40,934 nucleotides of DNA from positions 1-40,934 of the IMG/VR virus record IMGVR_UViG_3300032435_000026; one strand, given 5' to 3'. The position numbers were made by a program, and so were the translations under genes. The notes beneath the pieces are model-generated. The model was not told where the DNA came from. It did not search any database and was given only the letters and a program-made list of their open reading frames with translations. Origin of the DNA: a virus. Shown piece after piece: positions 114 through 40,934 of the stretch; the stretch's first letter is position 1, and every line of letters begins with the position of its first letter.

Positions 114-222
114 GGTCTTTTCTCCGGGTCTGGTGCGTCGCGGTGTGCGTCGCCTCTGCAACCACCATCGCTCTTGTCGCGCTGCTAGTGTAGAGAAAGC
201 AGAGCAATAACAGTGCTTTGTG
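114..222 (-). promoter_or_regulatory. Repeated leader A (promoter and 5' UTR)
   Basis: One of four ~110 bp near-copies placed directly upstream of small leftward genes (others at 592-705, 959-1068, 40711-40818). Reading leftward: conserved CTGTTATTGC (204-213), a TACACT hexamer (187-192) that fits a -10 box, a GCGATGGTG block, a doubled CGACGCAC motif and a CCGGAG ribosome site. No good consensus -35 hexamer is visible, so an activator or a phage-specific control may be needed. Confidence 0.6.
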
Positions 223-233
223 CAATCGCGACG

Positions 234-293
234 GCGCCCGAAATAGCGCCCGAAATAGCGCCCGAAATAGGCCCCGAAATAGGCCCCGAAATT
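234..293. repeat. Five tandem 12-bp repeats upstream of leader A
   Basis: Five consecutive 12-bp units, three of GCGCCCGAAATA followed by two of GGCCCCGAAATA, the last ending ...GAAATT. They lie immediately upstream, in the leftward sense, of the -35 region of leader A and are absent from leaders B, C and D. No convincing ORF uses them; the rightward frame is just a repetitive EIAP string. They could be a protein-binding array or replication slippage. Confidence 0.75.
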
Positions 294-326
294 ATAATAT
301 CGGGCAAACGGGTCGGGAGAGCGAAG

Positions 327-349
327 CGGCCCGGCAGAGCGCCGGGCCG
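327..349. terminator. GC-rich hairpin downstream of the 370-591 gene
   Basis: Perfect 9-bp inverted repeat CGGCCCGGC / GCCGGGCCG with a 5-nt loop, placed just after the stop of the leftward gene 370-591. There is no T-run on the leftward transcript, so it may be a weak terminator or an mRNA-stabilising hairpin. It bounds the cassette. Confidence 0.45.
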
Positions 350-369
350 TGGAGGTCTGCTGCGGTGCC

Positions 370-591
370 TCAGTCGACCCAGAACTTGGTGGCGTCGATC
401 GCCTGAAGGCGGAAGGTGTCCTCTTCGTGGCCCTCTTCAAAAGCCCAATATTCGTGGCAGATGTGGCCAGCGCCAAACTCGCAGGCTTTGAGGGTCTCGT
501 TGGTGAAGCGGGTCCGGTAGTAAACCTTGCCGTCCTGGCCGGTGATCTCGTCGGGCATGTCGCTCGCTGGGGTGTGGATCTTGGCGGTCAT
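370..591 (-). CDS. Small hypothetical cassette protein (73 aa)
   Basis: Start is the ATG at 591, about nine bases after GGAG at the end of leader B. A longer in-frame reading from 639 would translate the leader itself and is unlikely. The protein begins MTAKIHTPAS, and contains a GKVYYRTRF strand-like segment and a cluster of Cys, His and Glu residues (CEFGAGHICHEYW), so a metal-binding or small beta-rich fold is possible but unproven. It has its own leader upstream and a 9-bp hairpin downstream, which makes it a self-contained transcription unit. Function is not recognised. Confidence 0.6.
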   Translation of the reverse strand: MTAKIHTPASDMPDEITGQDGKVYYRTRFTNETLKACEFGAGHICHEYWAFEEGHEEDTFRLQAIDATKFWVD

Positions 592-705
592 GTTCGTGGC
601 TCCGGGTCTGGTGCGTCGCGGTGTGCTTCGCCTCTGCAATCACCATCGCTCTTGTGGCGCTGCTAGTGTAGAGAAAGGTGAGCAATAACAGTTCTTTATA
701 TCATC
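592..705 (-). promoter_or_regulatory. Repeated leader B (promoter and 5' UTR)
   Basis: Second copy of the leader. Conserved CTGTTATTGC at 682-691 and TACACT at 665-670 (both on the minus strand), then GCGATGGTGATTGCAGAGGC and the repeated CGACGCAC-type motif (one copy CGAAGCAC), ending CCGGAGCCACGAACATG. The last ~15 bases before the ATG match leader C better than A or D. Confidence 0.6.
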
Positions 706-753
706 GCACGAATATCCGTTCTTCACTGGATCGCGGGCCCGACAGACGAGGCA

Positions 754-772
754 CCCCGGCACTTGGCCGGGG
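754..772. terminator. GC-rich hairpin downstream of the 782-958 gene
   Basis: Perfect 7-bp stem CCCCGGC / GCCGGGG with loop ACTTG, just downstream of the stop of leftward gene 782-958. No T-run follows. It occupies the same place in its cassette as the hairpins at 327-349 and 40446-40464. Confidence 0.4.
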
Positions 773-781
773 CGCGTAGCT

Positions 782-958
782 TCAGCGGAATTCGCCAGCG
801 ATGCTCGCGCCAGTTGTCTCGATCAGCGCGAGCCAGGCGTCGATGGCGGTTTGTTCGATCAGCAGGACGCTGACCTGCGCCGCCAAGTCTTCGAGGTCGC
901 TTGAATCGCCCCAGCGGATCGCGTCCTTGATCCGGCGAACGATATCTGTGGTGGTCAT
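782..958 (-). CDS. Small hypothetical cassette protein (58 aa)
   Basis: Starts at ATG 958 after GGGAGCC in leader C; the in-frame extension to 1000 would again translate leader sequence. The protein begins MTTTDIVRRIKDAIRWGDSS and is predicted by eye to be mostly helical and acidic, with an SSDLEDLAAQVSVLLIEQTA helix followed by a second amphipathic helix. No catalytic or metal motifs are visible and I do not recognise a family. It is the innermost of the leftward cassettes and is divergent from the terminase operon. Confidence 0.55.
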   Translation of the reverse strand: MTTTDIVRRIKDAIRWGDSSDLEDLAAQVSVLLIEQTAIDAWLALIETTGASIAGEFR

Positions 959-1068
959 AGGCGTGGCTCCCGAGTTGGTGCGTCGCGTTGTGCGTCGCAT
1001 CGTGCGAACACCATCGCTGCTATGGCGCTGGTAGTGTAGGAAAAACAGAGCAATAACAGTTCTTTATC
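959..1068 (-). promoter_or_regulatory. Repeated leader C (promoter and 5' UTR)
   Basis: Third, most diverged copy: CTGTTATTGC at 1050-1059 and TACACT at 1033-1038 on the minus strand, then ACCAGCGC...GCGATGGT and the doubled CGACGCAC motif. Because it abuts the ribosome site of the small terminase gene (GGAGG at 1072-1076), this 128-bp intergenic region may also hold the rightward late promoter, which I could not pick out. Confidence 0.55.
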
Positions 1069-1086
1069 ATCGGAGGCCGCACCCAG

Positions 1087-1632
1087 ATGAAGGGCATGAG
1101 CGAGCGCGATTATGGTGCGCACGCGGCGCTCTCGCGTGGCGCGGTGCAGAAGGCGAAGAAATACGGGCGGATCGTTCTCTATCCGGACGGCTCGATAAAT
1201 GCCGCGGCATCGGACACTCGGTACCGACTGACCACCAATCCCCTAAAGGCGGTTGCCAAGGTCGGCAGCGATGCCGGGCCAGCGCCGACAGGAAGCGCGG
1301 ACCCGTCTGCCTTTCTCAAAGCACGCACCGCGAACGAGGTCATAAAGGCGCAGCGAGGTCAGCTGCAGCTGGCTCGCCAGCGCGGCGAGCTGGTTGATCG
1401 GACGAAGGCGGAATCGCTTTTCTTCAAGCTGGCACGCCAAGAGCGTGACGCCTGGATCACGTGGCCGTCGCGCGTGGCAGCGCTGATGGCAGCGGAGTTC
1501 ACCGCGCAGATTGAAAAGGACACAGGCAAGAAGGTTGTGATCGATCCGGGCTTGGCCCAGAGGATTTTAGAAGACCATGTGCGCAGCAACCTCGAGTCCC
1601 TCGCTGAACCAGTCGCCAAACTTGGTTCCTGA
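1087..1632 (+). CDS. Terminase small subunit
   Basis: 181-aa DNA-recognition subunit of the packaging motor, first gene of the rightward late operon. The N-terminus (DYGAHAALSRGAVQKAKKYGR) has the shape of a helix-turn-helix as in Nu1-like subunits, and the C-terminal half (RTANEVIKAQRGQLQLARQRGELVDR, then QERDAWITWPSRVAALMAAE) matches the conserved region I know from alphaproteobacterial phage small terminases. Start at ATG 1087 is supported by GGAGG ten bases upstream. It overlaps the large subunit gene by 56 bp, typical of coupled terminase genes. A cos or pac site is expected nearby but was not identified. Confidence 0.85.
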   Translation: MKGMSERDYGAHAALSRGAVQKAKKYGRIVLYPDGSINAAASDTRYRLTTNPLKAVAKVGSDAGPAPTGSADPSAFLKARTANEVIKAQRGQLQLARQRGELVDRTKAESLFFKLARQERDAWITWPSRVAALMAAEFTAQIEKDTGKKVVIDPGLAQRILEDHVRSNLESLAEPVAKLGS

Positions 1633-3571
1633 CGATTGGTCGTTTGACGGAGGCGCTGGTCTTATGGCCGCGTTCCGGCGCGGGATCCGGCCCGACCAGC
1701 TGCTGTCGGTTACCGAGTGGGCGGACGAGCATCGGGTTCTGGCGGCAAAGGCGGCGGCCGAGCCCGGCCGGTACCGGAGCGCCAGGACGCCTTACCTGCG
1801 CGAGATCATGAACGCGCTGTCTCCTGCCCACCATGCGCAGCGCGTCACCTTCATGAAGGGCGCGCAGCTCGGGGCGACAGAGGCTGGCAACAACTGGATC
1901 GGCTTTGTGATCCATCACGCGCCGGGCCCGATGCTGGCGGTGCTGCCAAACGTAGAGCTCGCCAAGCGAAACTCGCGCAGCCGGATCGATCCGCTGATCG
2001 AGGAAAGCCCGGTGCTGCGCGAGCTGGTCAAGCCAGCGCGGTCGCGGGACGCCGGAAACACGATGCTGTCGAAGGACTTCCCAGGAGGCATTCTGGTGAT
2101 GACGGGCGCGAACAGCGCGGTTGGACTCCGATCGATGCCTGCGCGGTACCTCTTCCTCGACGAGGTGGATGGGTTTCCAACGTCGTCAGACGACGAGGGT
2201 GATCCGGTCGCGCTGGCCGAGGCGCGGACTTCGACCTTCGCGCATCGCCGCAAGATATTTATGGTCTCGACGCCTACGGTGCGAGGCGTCAGTCGGATCG
2301 AGCGCGAGTTTGAAGCCAGCGACCAGCGGCGGTACTTTGTGCCGTGCCCGCACTGCGGCCACATGCAGTGGCTGGAATTCGAGCGGCTGCGCTGGGAAAA
2401 GGGACGCCCGGAGACGGCAGCTTATCTCTGCGTCGGGTGCGATGCTCCGATTAATGAGCATCACAAACCGCGCTTTCTTGAGCAGGGTGAGTGGCGGCCA
2501 ACGGCAATCTCGAGCGATCCAAGGCACGTCGGCTTTCACCTCTCGGCGCTCTACTCGCCGATGGGCTGGGAGTCGTGGCAGAACATCGCGCGAAAGAAGG
2601 AAGCGGCGAAAGGGTCTGACGCGGCGCAGCGTGCCTTTGCGAATACCGTGCTCGGCATATCGTGGACCGAGAGCGGCGACGCTCCGGAGTGGGAGCGCCT
2701 GCAGGACCGGCGCGAAACCTACGGCGGCGCAGATATTCCGGCGCGAGGCCTGTTCCTGACTGCAGGCGTCGACGTTCAGGCGGATCGTTTCGAGATCGAC
2801 GTCTGGGCTTGGGGACGCGATCTGGAAAGCTGGCTGATCGATCACCGCGTGATCGAGGGCGGACCAAAGCGGCCCGAGGCTTGGGACGAGCTGACAACGG
2901 TGCTCGGCGCATCCTGGCAGCACGAAAACGGTGCCTTCATGCAGATCGCGAAGCTGGCGATCGACACCGGCTACGAGACCTCGGCGGTCTACGGCTGGTC
3001 GCGGAAGCAGGGCTTTGCGCAGGTGGCACCGGTCAAGGGTGTCGAGGGTTTCAACCGATCGGCGCCCGTCTCGGGCCCGACGTTCGTGGACGCCACGATC
3101 GGTGGTAAACGACTGCGCCGCGGTGCACGGCTCTGGACCGTCGCGGTGTCGACGTTCAAGCAGGAGACCTACCGTTTCCTGCGGCTGGAGCGTCCTGCAG
3201 ACGAGCAGCTGGCTGCAGGCGCAGGCTGGCCGCCCGGCTACGTCCACCTGCCCGATTGGGCGGACACGGAGTGGATGAAGCAGCTGGTTGCAGAGCAGCT
3301 GGTGACTGTCCGCAACCGGCGCGGGATTGGTCGCCTCGAATGGCAGAAGATGCGTGAGAGAAACGAAGCGCTCGATCTGCGTGTCTATGCGCGCGCTGCA
3401 GCATGGATCCTTGGCGCGGATCGATGGAGCGAGGACGCCTGGCGCACGCTGGAGTCGCAAGCAGGTGTCGAGACACTCGCAAAGAAGGAAGATCCACAGA
3501 ACACCGGCCAGACCCTTCCAACGGCCGGACTGCTGACGACGCCGCGGCGCAGTCGCAAGAGCACACGATAG
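1577..3571 (+). CDS. Terminase large subunit, GpA family
   Basis: 664-aa ATPase-nuclease that translocates DNA into the prohead. KGAQLGATEAGNN at about residues 94-106 is the degenerate Walker A typical of GpA-type terminases and RYLFLDEVDGF (190-200) is Walker B. A zinc-ribbon-like pair CPHCGHM / CVGC follows near residues 257-290. The C-terminal half (AGVDVQADRFEIDVWAWG and IDTGYETSAVY) carries the acidic residues of the RNase H-like nuclease. Length matches lambda gpA (641 aa). Start ATG 1577 lies inside the small-subunit gene; a later ATG at residue 30 is possible. The GpA family usually goes with cos-type packaging. Confidence 0.95.
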   Translation: MCAATSSPSLNQSPNLVPDDWSFDGGAGLMAAFRRGIRPDQLLSVTEWADEHRVLAAKAAAEPGRYRSARTPYLREIMNALSPAHHAQRVTFMKGAQLGATEAGNNWIGFVIHHAPGPMLAVLPNVELAKRNSRSRIDPLIEESPVLRELVKPARSRDAGNTMLSKDFPGGILVMTGANSAVGLRSMPARYLFLDEVDGFPTSSDDEGDPVALAEARTSTFAHRRKIFMVSTPTVRGVSRIEREFEASDQRRYFVPCPHCGHMQWLEFERLRWEKGRPETAAYLCVGCDAPINEHHKPRFLEQGEWRPTAISSDPRHVGFHLSALYSPMGWESWQNIARKKEAAKGSDAAQRAFANTVLGISWTESGDAPEWERLQDRRETYGGADIPARGLFLTAGVDVQADRFEIDVWAWGRDLESWLIDHRVIEGGPKRPEAWDELTTVLGASWQHENGAFMQIAKLAIDTGYETSAVYGWSRKQGFAQVAPVKGVEGFNRSAPVSGPTFVDATIGGKRLRRGARLWTVAVSTFKQETYRFLRLERPADEQLAAGAGWPPGYVHLPDWADTEWMKQLVAEQLVTVRNRRGIGRLEWQKMRERNEALDLRVYARAAAWILGADRWSEDAWRTLESQAGVETLAKKEDPQNTGQTLPTAGLLTTPRRSRKSTR

Positions 3572-3578
3572 GAACAAA

Positions 3579-3788
3579 ATGACGATCGAGCAGATGACCA
3601 TAAAGCTGAATGCGCTGAAAGATGCGCGCTACGCGGGCGTTCGCAGCGTGAGTTATGAGGGCCGCTCGGTCACCTATGGAAGCGATAATGAATTGAAAAT
3701 GGCCATTTCGGATTTGGAATCGGAGATCGCGAAAGCGCTGCGTCCTCGTTCCCGCATGTCCAGAACCTACGCCGTGAAGGGTCTCTGA
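3579..3788 (+). CDS. Head-tail joining protein, gpW family
   Basis: 69 aa, nearly the size of lambda gpW (68 aa), and in the same place between terminase and portal. Visible features are the helical N-terminus MTIEQMTIKLNALKDARYAG, a short beta hairpin RSVSYEGRSVTYGS and a helical ELKMAISDLESEIAKAL segment, the alpha-beta-alpha order of the gpW fold. gpW binds the portal after packaging and closes the head for tail attachment. Starts eight bases after the terminase stop; an internal ATG at codon 6 is an alternative start. Confidence 0.85.
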   Translation: MTIEQMTIKLNALKDARYAGVRSVSYEGRSVTYGSDNELKMAISDLESEIAKALRPRSRMSRTYAVKGL

Positions 3789-3789
3789 T

Positions 3790-5313
3790 ATGACTTGGCG
3801 CAAAAAGCTGGGAATGATGATTGCGGGTCAGCCCGCAACCCTGTGGACGGGTGGCTTCGAGGGCTCACAGGGCTCCGGACGTCTCCGTCAATTCCGACCG
3901 GCGCGGTCGCACGTCAACACGCTGCTGGCCGCTGCTGGCCCAGACATGAATGCGCGCGCCAGGTGGCTGGTGCGCAATAACGGCTATGCCGCGAACGCAA
4001 TCGAGAGCTTTGCCGGCAACGCCGTGGGTAACGGCATCAAGCCGGTTCTGAAATTGACCGACAGCGCCACCAAGGAACGGCTGCAGGAGTTGTTCTTGGC
4101 CTGGACTGATGAAGCGGACGCTGAGGGGATTACTGACTTCTACGGACTGCAGCGCCGCGCTGCGCGGGAAGTGTTCATGACCGGCGAGGTCTTTATCCGC
4201 ATGCGGCCACGCCGCACAGAGGACGGGCTGCGCGTTCCGCTTCAGCTTCAGATGCTGCCAGCAGAAATGCTGCCGATGAACCACACGCAGGTCGCGGCGA
4301 ATGGCAATCGCGTCCGCCAGGGGATCGAGTTCGACCTGGTCGGACGCCGGGTGGCCTACCACTTCTACCGTCGGCACCCAGGCGATGTGACTGAGCAGGA
4401 AAACACAGGCCAGATGACGCGCGTTCCGGCGTCGGAGGTTCTGCACATCATCGACCCGGTCGAGGCTGGCCAGCTGCGCGGGATATCCAAGTTCGCACCG
4501 GCGATCGTCAAGCTGTTCCTGCTGGACCAGTACGATGATGCCGAGCTGGACCGGAAGAAGGTCGCGGCGATGTTCGCCATGTTTGTCACCTCGCCTGCGC
4601 AAGAAAACCCGCTCGCACCTGCTGAAGAGGATATCGAACTTTCGCCTGGCCTGGTGACGCGACTGGATCCCGGCGAGGACGTGACCGTTGGCCAGCCAGC
4701 CGATTCCGGCGCTACCTATGAGCCGTTCCAGTACCGGACACTTTTGCAAGTCTCGGCCGCGCTGGGCATCCCCTATCCCTACATCACGAACGATATGGTG
4801 AAGGGCAACTTCTCGAACTCGCGGCTGGCGCTGATCGAGTTCCGGCGTCGTATCTCTGCGTGGCAGCACGGGGTGATGGTGTTCCAGATGTGTCGCCCGA
4901 TCTTCACACGCTGGATGGACGTCGCGGTCTTCTCCGGCGCGATTGATCTGCCTCGGTACGAACAGGAGCGCGCCGTTTACCAGCGCGCCGACTGGCTGCC
5001 CACAAAGTGGGATTGGGTCGACCCCCTGAAGGACGCGAACGCCGAGCTGGCGCAGATCGAGGGTGGACTCAAATCGCGGACCCAGGCTATCGCAGAGCGC
5101 GGCTATGACGCCGAAGAGGTCGATCGGGAGATTGCGGCGGAGCGTGCGCGCGAGCGTTTGCTTGGCCTCGACTTCCGTCGGCCCGGCTCGCCGCAGGGAC
5201 CAGCGCAAGAACCTGGCGCAGCTGATCCGAGCGACGCTGCAGAGAACGACGTCGACGAGGACAGCGACGAGGACAACGATGCGCCCGCGCGTGGGCCAGA
5301 GGAGGGACGATGA
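3790..5313 (+). CDS. Portal protein, lambda family
   Basis: 507-aa portal forming the dodecameric ring at the unique head vertex. The N-terminal WLVRNNGYAANAIESFAGNAVGNGI segment and LLQVSAALGIPYPYITNDMVKGNFSNSRLALIEFRRR (about residues 317-353) are signature stretches of lambda gpB-type portals. The C-terminus is acidic and disordered (NDVDEDSDEDNDAP). Starts one base after the gpW gene stop and overlaps the protease gene by four bases (ATGA), so head genes are translationally coupled. Confidence 0.95.
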   Translation: MTWRKKLGMMIAGQPATLWTGGFEGSQGSGRLRQFRPARSHVNTLLAAAGPDMNARARWLVRNNGYAANAIESFAGNAVGNGIKPVLKLTDSATKERLQELFLAWTDEADAEGITDFYGLQRRAAREVFMTGEVFIRMRPRRTEDGLRVPLQLQMLPAEMLPMNHTQVAANGNRVRQGIEFDLVGRRVAYHFYRRHPGDVTEQENTGQMTRVPASEVLHIIDPVEAGQLRGISKFAPAIVKLFLLDQYDDAELDRKKVAAMFAMFVTSPAQENPLAPAEEDIELSPGLVTRLDPGEDVTVGQPADSGATYEPFQYRTLLQVSAALGIPYPYITNDMVKGNFSNSRLALIEFRRRISAWQHGVMVFQMCRPIFTRWMDVAVFSGAIDLPRYEQERAVYQRADWLPTKWDWVDPLKDANAELAQIEGGLKSRTQAIAERGYDAEEVDREIAAERARERLLGLDFRRPGSPQGPAQEPGAADPSDAAENDVDEDSDEDNDAPARGPEEGR

Positions 5314-33446: not shown

Positions 33447-34033
33447 TGGGGCGCAAACCATGGAACAGGTTGCGACCGACGGCATCTGCTTTGCCGACCG
33501 AACAGACTGCTTCGCCAACGCGAACGGGGATTGGCGGAGTGCGGGTTCCTATCTCGGCGCCGGAGGCAATTCCGCACAAGCCCAAAGCAAGGCGGCGCAA
33601 CCCAGAGGCCGACGCACAGCGCGCGATCGTGACGTTTCTGCGGATGATCCTGCCTCGGCGCGCGATCGTCCACCATTCGGCGAATGAGGTCCGAGGCTCC
33701 GGGCATGATTACGAGCGCGCGCAGGGGCTGGCCGTCGGCATGGGTGTCCACGCCGGGTTCTCTGATCTGCTCGTGATGTCGGAGCAACGGCTGCTCTTCC
33801 TGGAAGTGAAAAGCATGACTGGTCGCCCGACTGACGCGCAGCGCGAGTTTGAATCGGACGTCGTGGCGCAGGGCCATCCGTACGAAATTGTCCGCAGCGT
33901 CGAGGACACTCGCGCGGCACTCGAAAAGCACAAATTCACAACCCGAGAAAGGAGGAGGCCAATGCCGATAAACCAGGACGGTTTAAGGCCTGTCAGCGAA
34001 ACCGATGTCCGCAGCAAAGGGGATCGACCATGA
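33443..34033 (+). CDS. VRR-NUC domain nuclease
   Basis: 196 aa from ATG 33443 overlapping the preceding stop. After a basic unstructured start, residues ~55-165 show the VRR-NUC pattern: DAQRAIVTFLRMILPRRAIVHHSANE, GVHAGFSDLLVM (D108), LLFLEVKSMTGRPTDAQREFESDVVAQGHPYEIVRSVEDTRAAL with E121 and K123. The family includes Holliday-junction and structure-specific endonucleases. Expected role is processing of replication or recombination intermediates. ATGA-coupled to the initiator gene. Confidence 0.85.
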   Translation: MMGRKPWNRLRPTASALPTEQTASPTRTGIGGVRVPISAPEAIPHKPKARRRNPEADAQRAIVTFLRMILPRRAIVHHSANEVRGSGHDYERAQGLAVGMGVHAGFSDLLVMSEQRLLFLEVKSMTGRPTDAQREFESDVVAQGHPYEIVRSVEDTRAALEKHKFTTRERRRPMPINQDGLRPVSETDVRSKGDRP

Positions 34034-34980
34034 GCCACCAAGCGACCAATTGGGCGGTCCAGCAGCGTGGGCTGAAGCCAGCGACCAAGATTGTCCTTTG
34101 GCACCTCTGCGATCGGCATAACCCTGACTACGGCTGCTTTCCATCGCAGCATCAATTGGCCCACGACTGCGAAATGTCGCCGTCGGCGCTGAACGTGCAT
34201 CTGCTCAAACTCGAAGCAGCTGGGCGCATCCGGCGCGTTCAATCACGGGATCCGAAAACAAACCGGCAGCTGCGGACACGCTACATATTGGGGTTCGAGG
34301 CGCTCTTCATACCAGAGCCGACTCCGGAATCAGGAGTCGGGATTGTCGGAACAGAAAAGGAACAGACACCAAAGCCGACTCCGGAATCAGGAGTCGGAAC
34401 CGTCTCCGGAATTGAGGGAAAGCCGACTCCGGATAATGGCCAAAGCCGACTCCGGAATCCGGAGTCTAAGAGTAACCCTGTAACAGAACCATTAAGAGAA
34501 CCAGTAAAGGAGGAGGAGGACGCGCGAGAAAGCGCGAGACGGGTTTCGGATGTTTTGTTTTTGAGGGTTCTCACAGCGCTGGGCATCAACGCCAACCGAT
34601 TGCCAACTTGGTGGCAGGGCGACGCAGCCCGCAGCCACATCGGCAGCTGGCGGCACGATCTTGGGCTTTCAGACAACGCCATCCTCCAAGTCGCTGCAGA
34701 GACCAGGAAGGCGCACGCAGAACCGCCAGACGGTCCGAAGGCGCTCGATCGAGCCATGGCGCGCCGATCGGCGACGGACCGGGCGGCCAGCACCAGGATA
34801 GTTGCGGCAAAGCATTCTGCGCCACAGGCGAGCCTTGGCGAACGCGCGGCCTTCTACGCGGAAATCGTGAACTCGGACGGGTTTCTGGCACCCTCGATGA
34901 TCAGCTGCACCGTCCGAGACGCGATGCTGCATCAAGGCCTCGTGACCGCCGAGCGACTTCGCGAACGAGGGGTGAGATGA
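34030..34980 (+). CDS. Replication initiator, lambda O-like, with origin inside
   Basis: 316 aa. Residues ~1-95 form a winged-helix of the phage replication-initiator type (NWAVQQRGLKPATKIVLWHLCDRHNPDYGCFPSQHQLAHDCEMSPSALNVHLLKLEAAGRIRR). The middle (residues ~97-150) is encoded by iterons and repeats PTPESGVG. The C-terminal part (from ~175) is helical and may recruit the host helicase. This is the same plan as lambda O, in which the origin lies within the gene. Its TGA overlaps the methyltransferase starts. Confidence 0.82.
   Translation: MSHQATNWAVQQRGLKPATKIVLWHLCDRHNPDYGCFPSQHQLAHDCEMSPSALNVHLLKLEAAGRIRRVQSRDPKTNRQLRTRYILGFEALFIPEPTPESGVGIVGTEKEQTPKPTPESGVGTVSGIEGKPTPDNGQSRLRNPESKSNPVTEPLREPVKEEEDARESARRVSDVLFLRVLTALGINANRLPTWWQGDAARSHIGSWRHDLGLSDNAILQVAAETRKAHAEPPDGPKALDRAMARRSATDRAASTRIVAAKHSAPQASLGERAAFYAEIVNSDGFLAPSMISCTVRDAMLHQGLVTAERLRERGVR
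34318..34466. repeat. Iterons within the initiator gene (candidate origin)
   Basis: Dyad repeat with arms CCGACTCCGGA and its complement: near-perfect 23-bp copies at 34318-34340 and 34375-34397, a 21-bp copy at 34446-34466, a half copy at 34423-34439 and a degenerate one at 34400-34416. From 34375 on the starts are 25, 23 and 23 bp apart. A less GC-rich stretch with TAAGAGTAA and ATTAAGAGAA follows (34467-34510), possibly the unwinding element. Confidence 0.75.
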
Positions 34981-37088
34981 ATGACGTGGTGCTACGTCCC
35001 AGAAACGGTATCAGCCTGTGCGCCGGAGCCGGTGGGCTCGACCTTGGGCTCCAGCTGGCCGAATTCGGATATGCAACCCGCTGCTTTGTTGAAAACGATC
35101 CCCGCGCTCAGGAAGCACTCGTCGCCGCAATGGCCTCGGAGCTATTTCTTCATCGCAACCCCGCACGTTCAGCTGCTTATTTCGATGATGTTGATCCTTC
35201 GATATCGGTCGATCCTTCCTTCGCCGGATGGGATACCGGATCTCTCCACACCGCCCCTGTGTGGTCCAACCTGCGAACGTTCATCGGTGATGCGTGGCGC
35301 GGGCATATCAACATCGTCAGTGCGGGATACCCTTGCCAGCCGTTCAGCGCCGCCGGGAAGCGTCTTGGCTCGGATGATCCTCGACACCTCTGGCCCGACG
35401 TCGCCCGAATCCTTGTTGAAACCGGAGCCGAATGGGGATTCTTCGAAAATGTCGCTGGGCACATTTCCCTCGGTCTTGAGACCGTGCTGCGAGACCTTTG
35501 GGACATGGGCTACACGCCTGCGGTTGGCCTATTCTCGTCGGCTGAAGCATTCGGCGCGCACGAACGGCAAAGGGTTTTCATCGTGGCCCACCGCAAGGGT
35601 GGCGGTGGGAGAATACACGCGCGATCGAGGGCAGAAGGGCGCGGAGCGACCGACCTTAAAGGGCACGGCGGTGCTGTGGAAAACGCCATCCGTTCCGAAC
35701 GGCGGGCGGGCGATGCCAGAGGGCATGACGCTGACCGGCCGGAAACAGGACGGGACCAAGGGGCAGGTCGAATTGGAGCACCAAGCGAAGATGTGGGGAA
35801 CCCCGCGGGCATCGGACGCCGATCAGGGATGGTCGCAGAACCTGAACGATGTGGCGGAACAAGGCACTTGGCCGACGCCGCGCGTGCAGATGGCGAAGGG
35901 GGCGGGCGGCAATCAACAGGGCGCAGCAGACCTGCAAACGGTAGTCAGCACCTGGCCGACGCCTGCGGCCCGGGACCACAAGGGCAGCAGCCCGGCGAGT
36001 GTCACGAGGGTCAACGGAAAGACCCGGATGGACTTACTCGATTTTCGAGCCGAGCTGGGATTTCACCACCAGGACCAACCGACGGCGTCGCATGGAGTGC
36101 CGTCCTCAGACTGGCGCCCGATCTCGCGCCGTCTCTTGCGTTCCGCGATCTCGTCAGTCGGGCAAACGACCTTGCTGCGATGGTTGCGGAAGGACGCATG
36201 GCGGAAGCGCAGGCTCAATCCGATCTTCGTCGCATGGCTGATGCGCTGGCCAAGCGGCCACGCGCTTTGCGCATTCTCGGAAACGGAGTGGACCCACTGG
36301 TCGCAGGATATGCGTGGCGCTCTCTCAGCGCTGCCCATGGCCTCGGGCCCTTGGATCTGGGAACCGAAAGAGGAAGCGGCAGAGGCGGTCCAGTTTCAAA
36401 TGTTCAGCGGTGGTGCGGAGTGATGGTTGAACAGCAAACCGGAAGGCGTGCGGCGGCGAATATGCCGGCCGGAATACTTCACCATGCTGCGGAAATGCAT
36501 GCGGCGACCCTGCGGCATGCTGCGGACATGCATGCAGGAAGCCTTCAGCATGCTGCGGACATTCATGCGGCCTCTCTCGAGCATGCTGCGGACATGACGG
36601 AGCAGCATGCGCCCAATGCTGTATCGGCCTTGAACAGCGCCGATATGGGCCTGTTTGCGGCCGATCCGGCAGATACGCCCCCGCAACCCCTTACAAACGC
36701 GGCCAACATGCCCGCGGCGACCCTTCAGCGTGCTGCGCACATGCATGCGGCGACCATGCGGCATGCTGCGGACATGCCTGCCGGAACCCTTCAGCATGCT
36801 GCGGACATGCAGGCGGCCTCCCTCGAGCATGCTGCGGACATGACGGAGCAGCATGCGCCCAATGCTCTCTTGGCCCTGTGTGGCGCGGATATGGGCCTGT
36901 TTGCGGCCGATCCGGCAGATACGCCCCGAAACCCCTTAAAAACGCGCCGGTTATGCCTGCGGCGACCCTTCAGGATGCTGCGGACATTCATGCGGCGACC
37001 CTCGAGCATGCTGCGGACATTCATGCGGCGACCCTTCAGCATGCTGCGGACATGCAGGCGGCCTCCCTCAAGCATGCGGCGGACATGA
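34977..37088 (+). CDS. C5-cytosine DNA methyltransferase with repeat tail
   Basis: 703-aa ORF. Residues 1-450 carry all main C5-methylase motifs: SLCAGAGGLDLGL (motif I, ~13-25), SAGYPCQPFSAAGKR (catalytic Cys in PCQ, ~119), FFENVAGH (motif VI, ~155), HERQRVFIVAH (motif VIII, ~195) and RALRILGNGVDPLVAGYAW (motifs IX-X, ~430-448). The stretch 200-400 is low-complexity (LADAARADGEGG), typical of one phage subfamily. After residue ~482 it runs without a stop into alanine-rich 11-residue repeats, ending out of frame at 37088. The methylase probably ends near residue 470; ATG 36423 is a possible separate start. Confidence 0.85.
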   Translation: MNDVVLRPRNGISLCAGAGGLDLGLQLAEFGYATRCFVENDPRAQEALVAAMASELFLHRNPARSAAYFDDVDPSISVDPSFAGWDTGSLHTAPVWSNLRTFIGDAWRGHINIVSAGYPCQPFSAAGKRLGSDDPRHLWPDVARILVETGAEWGFFENVAGHISLGLETVLRDLWDMGYTPAVGLFSSAEAFGAHERQRVFIVAHRKGGGGRIHARSRAEGRGATDLKGHGGAVENAIRSERRAGDARGHDADRPETGRDQGAGRIGAPSEDVGNPAGIGRRSGMVAEPERCGGTRHLADAARADGEGGGRQSTGRSRPANGSQHLADACGPGPQGQQPGECHEGQRKDPDGLTRFSSRAGISPPGPTDGVAWSAVLRLAPDLAPSLAFRDLVSRANDLAAMVAEGRMAEAQAQSDLRRMADALAKRPRALRILGNGVDPLVAGYAWRSLSAAHGLGPLDLGTERGSGRGGPVSNVQRWCGVMVEQQTGRRAAANMPAGILHHAAEMHAATLRHAADMHAGSLQHAADIHAASLEHAADMTEQHAPNAVSALNSADMGLFAADPADTPPQPLTNAANMPAATLQRAAHMHAATMRHAADMPAGTLQHAADMQAASLEHAADMTEQHAPNALLALCGADMGLFAADPADTPRNPLKTRRLCLRRPFRMLRTFMRRPSSMLRTFMRRPFSMLRTCRRPPSSMRRT
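34981..36423 (+). CDS. Overlapping +1-frame ORF within the methyltransferase gene
   Basis: 480-aa ORF starting four bases after the methylase ATG (ATGAATG) and stopping at TGA 36421-36423, where the TGATG start of the repeat gene lies. From ~residue 200 on it has the repeated motifs SSWPTARVAVGEY, LWKTPSVPNGG, WGTPRASDADQG, WPTPRVQM, WPTPAARDHKG and, near the end, RRLNPIFVAWLMRWPSG, as found in phage methylase-associated proteins. The same DNA words read LADA in the methylase frame. May be a second gene, a remnant of an ancestral frame, or chance openness in GC-rich DNA. Confidence 0.35.
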   Translation: MTWCYVPETVSACAPEPVGSTLGSSWPNSDMQPAALLKTIPALRKHSSPQWPRSYFFIATPHVQLLISMMLILRYRSILPSPDGIPDLSTPPLCGPTCERSSVMRGAGISTSSVRDTLASRSAPPGSVLARMILDTSGPTSPESLLKPEPNGDSSKMSLGTFPSVLRPCCETFGTWATRLRLAYSRRLKHSARTNGKGFSSWPTARVAVGEYTRDRGQKGAERPTLKGTAVLWKTPSVPNGGRAMPEGMTLTGRKQDGTKGQVELEHQAKMWGTPRASDADQGWSQNLNDVAEQGTWPTPRVQMAKGAGGNQQGAADLQTVVSTWPTPAARDHKGSSPASVTRVNGKTRMDLLDFRAELGFHHQDQPTASHGVPSSDWRPISRRLLRSAISSVGQTTLLRWLRKDAWRKRRLNPIFVAWLMRWPSGHALCAFSETEWTHWSQDMRGALSALPMASGPWIWEPKEEAAEAVQFQMFSGGAE

Positions 37089-37340
37089 AGGAGCAGCATG
37101 CGCCCAATGCTCTCTTGGCCCTTTGTGGCGCGGATATCGGGCGGTACCGGGGAAATCAGGCGGATATGTCGGCGAAAGCCCTCACAATCGCGGCCGACAT
37201 GCCTGCCGGAACCCTTCAGCATGCTGCGCACATGCATGCGGCGACCCTGCGGCATGCTGCGGACATGCATGCGGCCTCCCTTGAGCATGCTGCGGACATG
37301 ACGGAGCAGCATGCGCCCAATGCTCTCTTGGCCCTGCGAC
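36465..37340. repeat. Array of 33-bp tandem repeats
   Basis: Unit of about 33 bp containing GCATGCTGCGGACATGCATG, i.e. dense 8-10 bp palindromes (CAGCATGCTG, CATGCATG). Units group into four blocks separated by a related spacer starting (A/T)...GAGCAGCATGCGCCCAA at 36597, 36843, 37088 and 37301, giving a ~246-bp super-repeat (one 245, one 213). In the plus frame each unit reads as an 11-residue alanine-rich motif such as HAADMHAATLQ. Confidence 0.88.
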
Positions 37341-37366
37341 GACAGGATCAACGAGTCAGCCCATGA
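36953..37366 (+). CDS. Hendecad-repeat protein, C-terminal part in -1 frame
   Basis: 137 aa from ATG 36953 (MPAATLQDAADIHAATL...), continuing the repeat protein of 36423-37088 in the -1 frame after one C is missing from a C-run near 36923-36926. Stop 37364-37366 overlaps the next start (ATGA), and the likely start at 36423 overlaps TGA (TGATG), so 36423-37366 looks like one gene of about 314 aa. The 11-residue period with Met/Leu and many Ala suggests a hendecad coiled coil. No function known to me. Confidence 0.5.
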   Translation: MPAATLQDAADIHAATLEHAADIHAATLQHAADMQAASLKHAADMKEQHAPNALLALCGADIGRYRGNQADMSAKALTIAADMPAGTLQHAAHMHAATLRHAADMHAASLEHAADMTEQHAPNALLALRRQDQRVSP

Positions 37367-38067
37367 CGAAGCAGTCAGCACTGATGACCAAGGGTCACCA
37401 TCAAGGGCGCACGCGGCGCAGCTTCTGCGTTCAAGACATCTTGGAGTGGGCTTTTCGGATCGAGTGCGTCCAGCTGGAGCTGCCAGAGACGCGGTCGCCT
37501 GAAGAGCGCGGGTCAGGCTTCGGCGTAGAGTACGTGCTGATCCAGCGGGCGATCCTCGGTTGCAAGGTGGATGGTGGTGGCAGCAGCGACGCGCATTGGG
37601 ACGCAGAGATCATTGCCGCGACGGTCGCTAACCTTCCTGATGCGGTCGGCGGGATTCGGATGGGGATCTGGATTGCAGAGCTGGCTCGCGCCGGGCTCAC
37701 ACCAGACTGGATGCCAGGCGCGGTCTCGCGTTGCGTGCCATCCGAGTGGCGGCAGACCAAGCACGGCCAGCGCGCGCAGTCACAGGTCTGCGGTGAGCAT
37801 ATGGTGCGCAGCCGTGGGCGGTTGCGGTTGATCGAGGTCCGGTGCTGCCCGGTCAAGTACGATCCGCATCCCGGCATCATCGACGCTGCACGGCAGTCAT
37901 ACAACGATTGGTGCGCTGCGCTGGTCCACGTGCGCGATGCGCTCGACGCGGGCAGGATGCTGCGCGATCACGTGGTCGAGGAACGTTTGCCACCGGCGCA
38001 GCCCTGGGCGAGACGGTCCAGAGCAAGACCAGAGGTGATCAACCACCAGCATCGCGTCCAGACCTGA
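37363..38067 (+). CDS. Conserved phage hypothetical protein next to methylase
   Basis: 234 aa, ATGA-coupled to the repeat gene. Recognisable segments: QDILEWAFRIECVQLELPE, GFGVEYVLIQRAILGCKVDGGGSSDAHWDAEIIAATVANLP, GIRMGIWIAELARAGLTPDWMPGA and WCAALVHVRDALDAG. I recall similar proteins beside methylases in rhodobacterial prophages; no role is established. The conserved C, H and D residues could make a metal site. The basic C-terminal tail may be an extension. Confidence 0.7.
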   Translation: MTKQSALMTKGHHQGRTRRSFCVQDILEWAFRIECVQLELPETRSPEERGSGFGVEYVLIQRAILGCKVDGGGSSDAHWDAEIIAATVANLPDAVGGIRMGIWIAELARAGLTPDWMPGAVSRCVPSEWRQTKHGQRAQSQVCGEHMVRSRGRLRLIEVRCCPVKYDPHPGIIDAARQSYNDWCAALVHVRDALDAGRMLRDHVVEERLPPAQPWARRSRARPEVINHQHRVQT

Positions 38068-38118
38068 GCACCAGCCCTTGTGGCCACACACATCATGGCG
38101 GAAGAAATCGTTTGAAAA

Positions 38119-38134
38119 TGTCAACCGGTTGACA
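38119..38134. promoter_or_regulatory. Perfect 16-bp palindrome (operator-like)
   Basis: TGTCAACCGGTTGACA, a full palindrome of 16 bases, just after the 37363-38067 gene. Its right end TTGACA could serve as a -35 box, but no fitting -10 follows. A second inverted repeat, CCGGTC-TG-GACCGG, lies at 38159-38172. Confidence 0.55.
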
Positions 38135-38188
38135 TAGCCTTGGCGGATAGAGGTGCGCCCGGTCTGGACCGGCGTACGTTTTGTTTGG

Positions 38189-38262
38189 CGCAGGTGGAAC
38201 AGCGGCAGCTCGCACGGTTGGTACCCTTGACGCCGTGGGTGCGAGTCCGACCCCTGCAACCA
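38189..38262 (+). tRNA. Degenerate tRNA-like sequence, anticodon GGT
   Basis: Folds by eye as a cloverleaf with encoded CCA: acceptor CGCAGG/CCTGCA (C1-A72 mismatch as in initiator tRNAs), D-stem GAAC/GCTC, anticodon arm CACGG-TTGGTAC-CCTTG (anticodon GGT, Thr), T-arm GTGGG-TGCGAGT-CCGAC, then ACCA. Every stem has one mismatch and the 8-9 linker is one base short. It may be a decaying or unusual phage tRNA; a false positive is possible. Confidence 0.35.
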
Positions 38263-38539
38263 CGTCTACCCCCCCCGGCTATGGTTCCTCCCTTGCCCAC
38301 ATCGTATACGGGGGGGCTAAGCGCGCAAGATCGCTAGCGACTGGCCTAAAAATTATGGAAGCCACCGAAGCCAAAAAGCCAGTCTGGCCGCGCGCTGAAC
38401 CTTCAACAAAACAAAGCGTTTGCGAAACAGTAGCATCGCGCGCACTGGATTTTTTCTGCCAGAAATGGGGAAGCCACTTTGGCTTTGTTCCAACTGGATT
38501 TTGGAAGCCACCTCGCGTGGCGTGAAAGCAGACGACAGA

Positions 38540-39796
38540 ATGGATTTGATCTTCGTTCCGCAGACCGTCGAGCAGTGGCCGCTTGATCGCCTAAAGGCCT
38601 ATGCTCGAAACGCAAAGCTGCACTCGCCCGATCAGGTCACACGCATTGCGGCCAGCATGGTGGAGTTCGGCTGGACCAATCCTTGTTTTGTTGCCGACGA
38701 CGGCGAGCTGATTGCTGGTCACGGGCGAATTCTTGCTGCTGCTCAACTCGGCATTGAGACAGCGCCAGTCATCGTTCTCAGTCATCTGTCGGATGCGCAG
38801 CGCATCGCATATCGCCTGGCGGACAATTTGTTGGCTGATCTTGGCACGTATGATCAGGAGGCGTTGCACGAGCAAGTGCAGCTGCTGATGGCAGAGGATT
38901 ACGACATCGACCTTCTCGGCTTCACGGACGAGCACCTGAACGCACTTCTTTCGATCGGCGAAGGGAACGAAGGTGGAGTCGAGGGCGAGGATGATATCCC
39001 GGAGGTGTCGGCAACGCCGGTGTCGATCGCTGGTGACGTCTGGGTGTTGGGAAGCCACCGCCTGATCTGCGGGGACAGCACTTCGGCCGACGTCGTCGAC
39101 AGATTGCTCGGCGGTGTCAAACCGCAGCTGATGGTGACCGATCCTCCCTACGGCGTGGAGTACGATCCCTCTTGGCGCAACGAGGTTGGTGCCGCAAAGA
39201 CAAAGCGGAGCGGCAAGGTTCTGAATGATCATCGCGCGGACTGGCGCGAAGCCTGGGCGCTGTTCCCTGGCGACGTCGCCTACGTCTGGCACGGAGCGCT
39301 GCACGCGGCCGTCGTCGCGTCGTCTCTGGAGGCCACCGGCTTCGCCATCCGCTCGCAGATCATCTGGGCGAAGGAGCGCTTGGTGCTCAGCCGGGGTGAT
39401 TACCACTGGCAGCACGAGCCTTGTTGGTATGCCGTGCGGAAAAAGGGGACTGGCCATTGGGCAGGTGACCGGAAGCAGACGACGCTCTGGCAGATTTCCG
39501 CCAAGGACCAGGACGCGGAGACGGTGCACGGGACGCAGAAGCCGGTCGAATGCATGCGGCGGCCAATGGCAAACAACTCAAGCCCTGGGCAAGCGATCTA
39601 CGAGCCGTTCATGGGTTCTGGCACGACGCTGATCGCGGCGGAGACGTGCGGCCGAGTCTGCTACGGGATCGAACTGGATCCGGCCTACGTCGACGTTGCG
39701 GTGGAGCGCTGGCAGAACCTGACTGGCCAGACGGCGATCGAGGAAGAGACCGGCAAGACGCTGGAGGATCTGCGAGGCGAGCGGCTCACCGCCTGA
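38540..39796 (+). CDS. ParB-like / DNA N6-adenine methyltransferase fusion
   Basis: 418 aa from ATG 38540. Residues ~1-110 are a ParB/Srx-like domain (WPLDRLKAYARNAKLHSPDQVTRIAASMVEFGWTNPCFVADDGELIAGHGRILAAAQLG) with the GHGR motif. Residues ~165-415 form a beta-class methylase: LICGDSTSADVVDRLL, VTDPPYGVEY (catalytic DPPY, ~201-204), QKPVECMRRPM, and the SAM motif YEPFMGSGTTLIAAE (~357). Beta order (DPPY before FxGSGT) is as in CcrM-type enzymes. Such fusions occur in Mu-like and siphoviral prophages and protect DNA. Last gene of the rightward early operon. Confidence 0.92.
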   Translation: MDLIFVPQTVEQWPLDRLKAYARNAKLHSPDQVTRIAASMVEFGWTNPCFVADDGELIAGHGRILAAAQLGIETAPVIVLSHLSDAQRIAYRLADNLLADLGTYDQEALHEQVQLLMAEDYDIDLLGFTDEHLNALLSIGEGNEGGVEGEDDIPEVSATPVSIAGDVWVLGSHRLICGDSTSADVVDRLLGGVKPQLMVTDPPYGVEYDPSWRNEVGAAKTKRSGKVLNDHRADWREAWALFPGDVAYVWHGALHAAVVASSLEATGFAIRSQIIWAKERLVLSRGDYHWQHEPCWYAVRKKGTGHWAGDRKQTTLWQISAKDQDAETVHGTQKPVECMRRPMANNSSPGQAIYEPFMGSGTTLIAAETCGRVCYGIELDPAYVDVAVERWQNLTGQTAIEEETGKTLEDLRGERLTA

Positions 39797-39805
39797 ACGC
39801 GTAGA

Positions 39806-39837
39806 AGCGCCAGTCGCTTTGCAAGAGCGCTGGCGCT
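39806..39837. terminator. Hairpin between convergent genes
   Basis: 8-bp inverted repeat AGCGCCAG / CTGGCGCT with a 16-nt loop in the 50-bp gap between the rightward methylase and the leftward DUF3489 gene. No T-run on either strand; perhaps a weak bidirectional terminator. Confidence 0.4.
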
Positions 39838-39846
39838 GATCCGCGA

Positions 39847-40395
39847 TCAGGGCTGGCCGGTGATCCGGTGGACGCGGCCGCGCTCGGCGACGTCCTCGGA
39901 AGCCATTTGAAAGCCAAGGCGCTTTTGCAGCGCATGCGAGAGTGTCGAGCGCACCGTGTGTGCCTGCCAGCCGGTCGCCTCGGCGATCTCCTTGGTCGTC
40001 GCGCCCTCGGGGCGAAGGAGCATCGCGATCACGTGAGCCTGCTTCGTGCCCTCGCGACGTGGGCGCGACGCTGGAGCCGCGCTGGGTTCGGTTGCTGGCG
40101 GCTCTTCCGCGACACTTGTCTCGGTCGTTTCGCCCTGCTCGATGCCGATCGCTGCGAGGCCTTTGGCCGTGGCCACCAGCGTGACACCGTGGCCGTCGCC
40201 GGTCTCGCGCCAGACCGGTTCGCCCCGACGCATGTCGGCTTCGACTTCCTCAAGAAAGCCAGCGCGCTTCATTGCGACGATGACCTTGGCTGCTGCGCCT
40301 CCGCGCAAGTTCGCGGGCAACGGTAGCGCGATTAGATAAAGACGCTGCGATGCCGCGCTGAGGATCAGTGATTGGGTTTCGGAAATCTGTGACAT
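39847..40395 (-). CDS. DUF3489 domain protein
   Basis: 182 aa, ATG 40395 with CCGGAG upstream. The C-terminal REGTKQAHVIAMLLRPEGATTKEIAEATGWQAHTVRSTLSHALQKRLGFQMASEDVAERGRVHRI (residues ~110-178) is the DUF3489 signature, a winged-helix-like domain with an explicit helix-turn-helix. The N-terminal half (RLYLIALPLPANLRGGAAAKVIVAMKRAGFLEEVEADMRRG) looks like another small DNA-binding or wHTH module. Likely regulator. Leftward, convergent with the methylase operon. Confidence 0.85.
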   Translation of the reverse strand: MSQISETQSLILSAASQRLYLIALPLPANLRGGAAAKVIVAMKRAGFLEEVEADMRRGEPVWRETGDGHGVTLVATAKGLAAIGIEQGETTETSVAEEPPATEPSAAPASRPRREGTKQAHVIAMLLRPEGATTKEIAEATGWQAHTVRSTLSHALQKRLGFQMASEDVAERGRVHRITGQP

Positions 40396-40445
40396 GTCTG
40401 GCTCCGGTTGTCGGCGAGCGTGATGCTCATCCTTCTACGCGGCCA

Positions 40446-40464
40446 AGCCCCGCAGTGCGGGGCT
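40446..40464. terminator. GC-rich hairpin between leftward genes
   Basis: Perfect 8-bp stem AGCCCCGC / GCGGGGCT with a three-base loop, downstream of the 40483-40710 gene and 51 bases upstream of the DUF3489 gene start. No T-run. Same place in its unit as 327-349 and 754-772. Confidence 0.45.
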
Positions 40465-40482
40465 CGCGCCATCCATTTGGCT

Positions 40483-40710
40483 TCAGATCAGGTTAAGGGC
40501 TGTGAGGATCGTGGCGACCTTCAGAAGGTCGGCTGTGCGGCAGTCGATTCCGACCCGGCCAGCCATCAAGAAAACCTCGTAGTTCTCGAGGCACTCCATG
40601 TGCAGCGTGTTGTGCATCTCGTGAATGTTGCAGACCTTGTGGAACTCTTCGAGGCCGAAGAAGATCCGTGTCGTTTCGGTGTTCGCGGCGGTGCTGGTCT
40701 GGTTGCTCAT
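40483..40710 (-). CDS. Small hypothetical cassette protein (75 aa)
   Basis: ATG 40710 follows CCGGAG in leader D; in-frame extension to 40758 would translate the leader. Begins MSNQTSTAA, identical to the start of the gene at 1-113, then diverges (NTETTRIFFGLEEFHKVCNIHEMHNTLHMECLENYEVFLMAGRVGIDCRTADLLKVATIL). Several Cys and His residues could bind metal. Function unknown. Confidence 0.62.
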   Translation of the reverse strand: MSNQTSTAANTETTRIFFGLEEFHKVCNIHEMHNTLHMECLENYEVFLMAGRVGIDCRTADLLKVATILTALNLI

Positions 40711-40818
40711 GGTCTTTTCTCCGGTTCTGGTGCGTCGCGTTGTGCGTCGCCTCTGCAATCACCATCGCTTTGGTGGCGATGGTAGTGTAGTGAAAGCAGA
40801 GCAATATCAGTGCTTTCT
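40711..40818 (-). promoter_or_regulatory. Repeated leader D (promoter and 5' UTR)
   Basis: Fourth copy: CTGATATTGC (40801-40810) and TACACT (40784-40789) on the minus strand, then a perfect 8-bp inverted repeat ACCATCGC / GCGATGGT (40761-40768 and 40776-40783) at the expected 5' end of the RNA, and the doubled CGACGCAC motif. Closest to leader A, sharing CCGGAGAAAAGACC before the ATG. Confidence 0.6.
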
Positions 40819-40820
40819 GA

Positions 40821-40934
40821 TCACTCGGCAATTCCGAGGACTTCAGGGTCAATGCGGTAATCGTCGCGCAGCCGGTGGAGCGCAGAGCCTGGAAGGGCGA
40901 AGTGGACAACCGAAAGGATGGCGTCGGCATCCGG
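40821..40934 (-). CDS. C-terminal end of a small protein (cut by window edge)
   Basis: Leftward frame with stop TGA at 40821-40823 and about 37 visible codons reading PDADAILSVVHFALPGSALHRLRDDYRIDPEVLGIAE. The sequence is clearly protein-like and ends just before leader D, so it is the cassette upstream of the 40483 gene. It might be the C-terminal half of the gene starting at 113 if the molecule is circular, but a direct end-to-end join is out of frame by one base. Confidence 0.5.
   Translation of the reverse strand, partial: PDADAILSVVHFALPGSALHRLRDDYRIDPEVLGIAE

Follow-up and report, generated by a model that had tools for sequence, protein, structure and literature searches.

The stretch of DNA analyzed here, hereafter the window, is a 40,934-base virus record from IMG/VR. 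Near its right end, the gene order comprises an O-like replication initiation gene (34030–34980, plus strand; phrog_345, E 1.3e-21; HTH_36, E 2e-12), a C5-cytosine methylase locus (34977–36423), a tandem repeat array (36423–37366), a gene of unknown function (37363–38067, plus strand; phrog_9306, E 3.9e-39) that is conserved beside the C5-methylase gene (dcm) in relatives, and a DNA methylase whose N-terminus is ParB-like (38420–39796). The best explanation of this neighborhood, which shares the modest confidence of the whole reading developed below, places the array in the early operon of a lambda-like phage that has relatives in Rhodobacteraceae genomes. Inside the O-like gene, iteron-like repeats of palindromic appearance (34311–34475) form a candidate lambda-type origin, and a 12-bp tandem repeat of about 4.9 copies occupies positions 234–292. 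In a contig about 95% identical to the window (L011), window positions 38011–40461 continue into positions 124–3950, with a different sequence at the join. Since this contig spans the window ends (1–124 and 40461–40934), the two ends belong together and the genome is circular or permuted; the same contig stops about 600 bp short of the array.

Anatomy and Reading Frames of the Repeat Array

The array is made up of four imperfect super-repeats with a period of 246 bp, built from 33-bp units. Tandem Repeats Finder reported a period of 246 for positions 36477–37300 (3.4 copies, 86% matches, score 1166), with sub-periods of 33 and 66 bp, which bears out the original prediction of about 0.9 kb of 33-bp repeats nested in super-repeats of roughly 246 bp. 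The predicted coding units of HAADMHAATLQ type are likewise present in the translated array, where 13 alanine-rich units of 11 residues were listed. Besides these units, each super-repeat has a linker and a constant end, EQHAPNA, apart from super-repeat 1 (36450–36626), from which the linker is absent. Super-repeat 2 (36627–36872) and super-repeat 3 (36873–37117) both carry the linker, the latter being short by one base, and super-repeat 4 (37118–37330) carries the linker and lacks one hendecad (33 bp); all four lie on the plus strand. Identity between super-repeats is 81–88%, and a degenerate two-hendecad DNA pattern matched four times in the window versus none in 100 shuffles.

The repeat reading frame begins at an ATG (36423–36425, plus strand) that overlaps the TGA of ORF B (36421–36423) as TGATG (36421–36425). 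It continues to a run of four C (36924–36927, plus strand), where the frame changes once, the equivalent run of super-repeat 2 having five C (36678–36682). From there, the repeats are read in a second frame (36926–37366, plus strand; open from the GTG at 36878), whose TGA (37364–37366) overlaps the ATG of the downstream gene (37363–37365) as ATGA (37363–37366). The single frame change at the C-run and the overlap of the array's stop with the next ATG were both correctly foreseen from the sequence. The proposed overlap of the repeat start with an upstream TGA also holds, but this TGA was taken for the methylase stop and in fact ends ORF B, which is read in the +1 frame relative to the methylase.

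The methylase frame itself, here called frame A, starts at ATG 34977 and has no stop before the array, remaining open from 34977 to 37088 (704 codons). As frame A is stop-free up to the array, the first half of the repeats forms an in-frame C-terminal extension of the methylase; the same half can also be started at ATG 36423, directly at the ORF B stop. Because of the one-base break, frame A stops at 37088 and the second half of the repeats is cut off. In six relatives compared side by side with the window, frame A ends in a TGA shortly upstream of the ORF B stop, and the window bases at that site are altered; another relative (L084), compared in the same manner, has its frame A stop at the same place. 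Together with the stop-start overlaps, this read-through supports the earlier suggestion that the repeats are fused to, or coupled with, the methylase locus.

A single missing base within a C-run of a metagenomic record, past which the amino-acid pattern resumes exactly, could be a sequencing or assembly error in that base or in the repeat number, in which case the true frame would be open from the methylase to 37366. This is improbable, as the copies differ by 12–19% and are distinguishable; no exact repeat within the array exceeds 54 nt, which is short enough for ordinary reads to have resolved the array.

Coding Signal of the Array

A codon-usage model trained on 14 window genes gave the repeat frame 0.195 bits per codon before the break and 0.203 after it, with the remaining forward frames of the array scoring -0.18 to -0.50. 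The best reverse frame scored 0.055 before the break and 0.165 after, and the other reverse frames -0.26 to -0.42. For comparison, the downstream gene scored 0.175 and five structural genes 0.306–0.409, all of these being within the training set. Variable columns between super-repeats, counted by codon position, numbered 18, 19, and 30 (binomial p 0.034). This third-position excess resides mainly in the hendecad body (9, 11, 20), nearly vanishes in the linker (9, 8, 10), and does not appear between super-repeats 2 and 3 (11, 8, 11). The dN/dS values among super-repeats were 0.38–0.64, for copy pairs that are not independent of each other. Taken together, these values are moderate evidence that the array is a weakly constrained coding sequence.

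Homologue Searches and the Variable Slot

All searches for homologues of the repeats came back negative. Against phages, blastn returned nothing, and the best of five tblastn records (E 0.07) looks compositional; tblastn against plasmids also gave no homologue. Viral contigs yielded none when searched with the second-half protein, with a four-row profile, with a 23-mer, or with the degenerate two-hendecad pattern, which had been verified on the window. In genome contigs, the profile gave 237 pattern matches, none of which was confirmed. The repeats were absent from 12 records of relatives, the two-hendecad pattern found no homologue in 385 genomes of the class, and the profile matched four of 394 genomes of the family at E 0.006–0.009, a number expected by chance. 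Searches of protein families and solved structures gave no credible relative, and no family, those of PHROGs included, covers the repeats. Matches to DUF6505, BT4734-like_N, RGS12_usC, and GvpQ fell below the cut-off and were judged compositional, as were weak PDB matches to DARPins (E 0.018). A pentapeptide-repeat reading, prompted by a 13-bit PDB match, was also rejected: the unit corresponds to two quasi-pentapeptides plus one residue, which breaks the strict period of five, and no pentapeptide model matched. None of the papers listed in a literature search showed a phage hendecad protein of this kind. The view that no such phage protein is known agrees with these searches of phages, plasmids, viral contigs, and genomes.

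To place the array among related phages, 249 loci besides the window's own, many of them from Rhodobacteraceae genomes and viral contigs, were gathered with the downstream gene as bait together with the more distant methylase; this bait favors loci that have the downstream gene and is blind to phages without it, and records very near the window were left out. A survey of 180 loci with the downstream gene found the dcm locus upstream in 95, the initiator without dcm in 76, and neither within reach in nine; after removal of duplicates, these numbers became 78, 64, and 9. The slot between initiator and downstream gene (34980–37363) is already variable in these phages, with dcm present or absent; the locus whose downstream gene is most similar to that of the window (L091, 65%) has none. 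Among the 64 initiator-only loci, the slot of L005 and that of L006 contain 426 and 754 nt, respectively, of sequence that does not resemble the array.

In all 78 distinct dcm-bearing relatives, the downstream gene follows the extrapolated ORF B end with no insert, which makes the array unique to this phage within the set of loci surveyed. The largest distance past the last aligned residue, in the survey before duplicate removal, was 77 nt, in a locus (L140) whose frame B is open beyond the usual stop. In relatives, the overlap of the ORF B stop with the following start takes the form ATGA (64 of 71) or GTGA (6 of 71). Homologues that kept the flanking genes and lacked the repeat ORF, with no sign of translation, had been named as evidence against a repeat gene. 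The first part of this pattern is indeed what the relatives present, but codon usage and the overlaps still favor translation in the window.

The frame break, the weak constraint, the lack of homologues, and the absence from all 78 relatives would also be expected of a decaying, untranslated array, produced by selfish tandem expansion in a tolerant junction and with its frame already lost. Such an origin is rather unlikely, however, given that codon usage agrees with the repeat frame before and after the break alike, that the overlaps are kept at both ends, and that frame A enters the array without a stop. A role at the DNA level, for example as an origin or partition array, might be suggested by the direct repeats of 33 bp, which lie some 1.4 kb away from the O-like initiator gene. 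This role is very improbable: relatives manage without the array, the array bears a codon-phase signal, inverted repeats of at least 10 bp within 60 bp are absent from 36000–37800, and iteron-like repeats already exist inside the O-like gene, in favor of which the array was dropped as a candidate for origin iterons.

Predicted Structure of the Repeat Polypeptide

The period of 11 residues is present, as 13 units with a 33-bp period. The right-handed hendecad coiled coil or LEA-like helix that this period had suggested did not find support. No register of a hydrophobic a, d, e, h core exceeded 75% hydrophobic residues counting alanine, nor 27% large hydrophobics; the hydrophobic moment of an 11/3 helix was 0.196 versus a shuffle mean of 0.187, with 44% of shuffles equally high; and no Pfam LEA family matched. 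Structure prediction, which had been proposed for the corrected full-length protein, was applied to the first in-frame half. AlphaFold2, run on this half as a monomer from a single sequence, gave long helices (residues 2–77, 89–144, and 147–159), at a mean pLDDT of only 66.5 and a pTM of 0.44. Alanine-rich single sequences tend to be modeled as helices, and these helices are therefore given little weight. The repeat polypeptide would probably be helical, though not a classical coiled coil.

These results bear on the idea of a functional alanine-rich repeat protein, either as a methylase tail or as a separate coupled product, in which the break would act as an on/off switch through slippage at the C-run or recombination between super-repeats. 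Besides the one base, the indels keep the frame (33 bp and 246 bp), dN/dS is below 1, and recombination could occur between exact repeats, which reach 54 nt. Against this, runs of four and five C are short for slippage switching, which calls for a long homopolymer or short-repeat run, and the phase variation attributed to the C-run is thus unsupported. With the array absent from all relatives and an amphipathic or coiled-coil signal absent as well, we consider a functional protein of this kind unlikely.

Two Overlapping Frames in the Methylase Locus

The C5-cytosine methylase is encoded in frame A (34977–37088, plus strand; methylase part 34977–36422), which matches PF00145 (E 3.4e-23) and phrog_363 (E 1.4e-39); its TIGR00675 score is below the cut-off (63 vs 100.65 bits). 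A C-terminal GNxV-type motif, which we take to be that of C5-methylases, is present in frame A of the window and of five aligned relatives. ORF B (34981–36423, plus strand) runs in the +1 frame over the whole methylase gene and matches phrog_27243 (E 3.2e-47) and phrog_1008 (E 9.6e-30), so that PHROGs holds families for both frames.

The same arrangement was observed in all 71 distinct loci compared, where frame A ranges from 318 to 506 codons and frame B inside it is always stop-free, with 5–14 stops in the third forward frame. Frame B has its ATG four bases past the frame A start in 69 of the 71 loci, the other two having poorly anchored starts, and ends 16 nt past the frame A stop in 68. 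Under synonymous recoding of frame A, 3.78 frame-B stops would be expected per locus, and none was observed in 72 loci including the window; the mean zero-stop probability was 0.024, with at least one locus without power (probability 1.0), and as the two-frame loci are related, these counts are not independent events. The lengths of frame A cluster at 318, 358, 385, and 416 codons (e.g., L002:4413-5676, L025:2853-4023, and L093:2996-3965), and ORF B contains repeated W-x-TP modules, a pattern that would fit the gain and loss of recognition modules.

Constraint shifts between the frames along the gene. In 25 loci of 416 codons, differences at frame-A codon positions 1, 2, and 3 were 0.073, 0.036, and 0.294 for nt 0–312, indicating that frame A is constrained there, and 0.140, 0.042, and 0.174 for nt 312–624. 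For nt 624–936, the values were 0.293, 0.065, and 0.067, the differences falling on the third position of ORF B, as expected where frame B is constrained; for nt 936–1248 they were 0.182, 0.076, and 0.120. Past its first few codons, the early part of frame B (about nt 80–390) is conserved no better than the third frame, so frame B might use a start further downstream or be entered by a frameshift from A. An AlphaFold2 model of the last 281 residues of ORF B was poor (pLDDT 47.4).

Annotated phages contain both versions of this gene. In Acidovorax phage Alfacinha1, both frames are open and gp46 (L255:1434-2567), annotated as a cytosine-specific methyltransferase, is the B-type frame; the methylase motifs lie in the other one. 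Synechococcus phage Yong-M2-251 has the same two open frames, and its annotated gene is frame A. A tentative reading of these sequence patterns is that the C5-methylase locus could be dual-coded over much of its length, with frame A supplying the catalytic part and C-terminal motif, and frame B either another conserved polypeptide or, joined on through frameshifting, a target-recognition part. The insert in the window would then form both a frame A tail and a cistron coupled by stop-start overlap to B, with a frame that super-repeat recombination could reset. If confirmed, some phage methylase annotations may cover only half of a two-frame gene.

Origin of the Insert and Comparison with Known Systems

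The best explanation of the array, which we favor with modest confidence, is a lineage-specific coding insert, expanded in tandem and under weak constraint, which sits between overlapping genes of the operon and is now broken in frame. The insert would have grown by tandem duplication, of 33-bp units first and 246-bp super-units next, and may be, or may until very recently have been, translated as an alanine-rich, weakly constrained polypeptide. Ribosomes could enter it by reading on from the stop-less methylase frame or by restarting at ATG 36423 after the ORF B TGA, the latter route resembling the placement of the downstream gene in relatives. Since each end of the insert retains a stop-start overlap, translational coupling of the operon would persist in a version with an intact frame. 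Beyond translation that is tolerated, the insert is expected to have little if any selected function. The anatomy of the array, its overlaps, the coding-like codon use on both sides of the break, and its absence from relatives are direct observations on which this explanation draws. On the opposite side, third codon positions vary only modestly more than the others (p 0.034), one reverse frame past the break likewise scores 0.165, and the insert is present in one genome only, so that nothing shows retention; the broken frame speaks against a full-length product being made today.

Helices with a period of 11 residues are known from hendecad right-handed coiled coils, group 3 LEA proteins, and type I antifreeze proteins. 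The array shares with them the 11-residue period, the richness in alanine, and the predicted helicity, but differs in having no core register, no moment above shuffles, and no family match. Lineage-specific tandem-repeat ORFs without homologues are a recognized general kind, to which the array corresponds as an in-frame tandem duplication under weak constraint in a single genome. It departs from them in its position within an operon, where stop-start overlaps flank it, and in sharing its frame with a methylase. The array offers a clear example of a new coding insert, grown in tandem, that has entered an operon between overlapping genes, with stop-start overlaps retained on both sides and many insert-free relatives available for comparison.

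For the methylase overlap, our literature search returned no description of an overlap of this kind. The PHROGs families extend to each frame separately, with phrog_27243 and phrog_1008 matching ORF B and phrog_363 matching frame A, and none of them reaches the repeats. The array is a modest orphan insert, whereas the overlapping methylase frames are the stronger lead, and the methylase locus would matter more if confirmed. The nearest described case was the ShiLan out-of-frame insertion, in which an HNH homing endonuclease lies within phage DNA methylases (PMC11855218). Both cases have a second ORF in another frame of a phage DNA-methylase gene; in ShiLan this is an insertion within the gene, whereas in the present locus ORF B extends over the full gene in every relative examined and the repeats follow after it.
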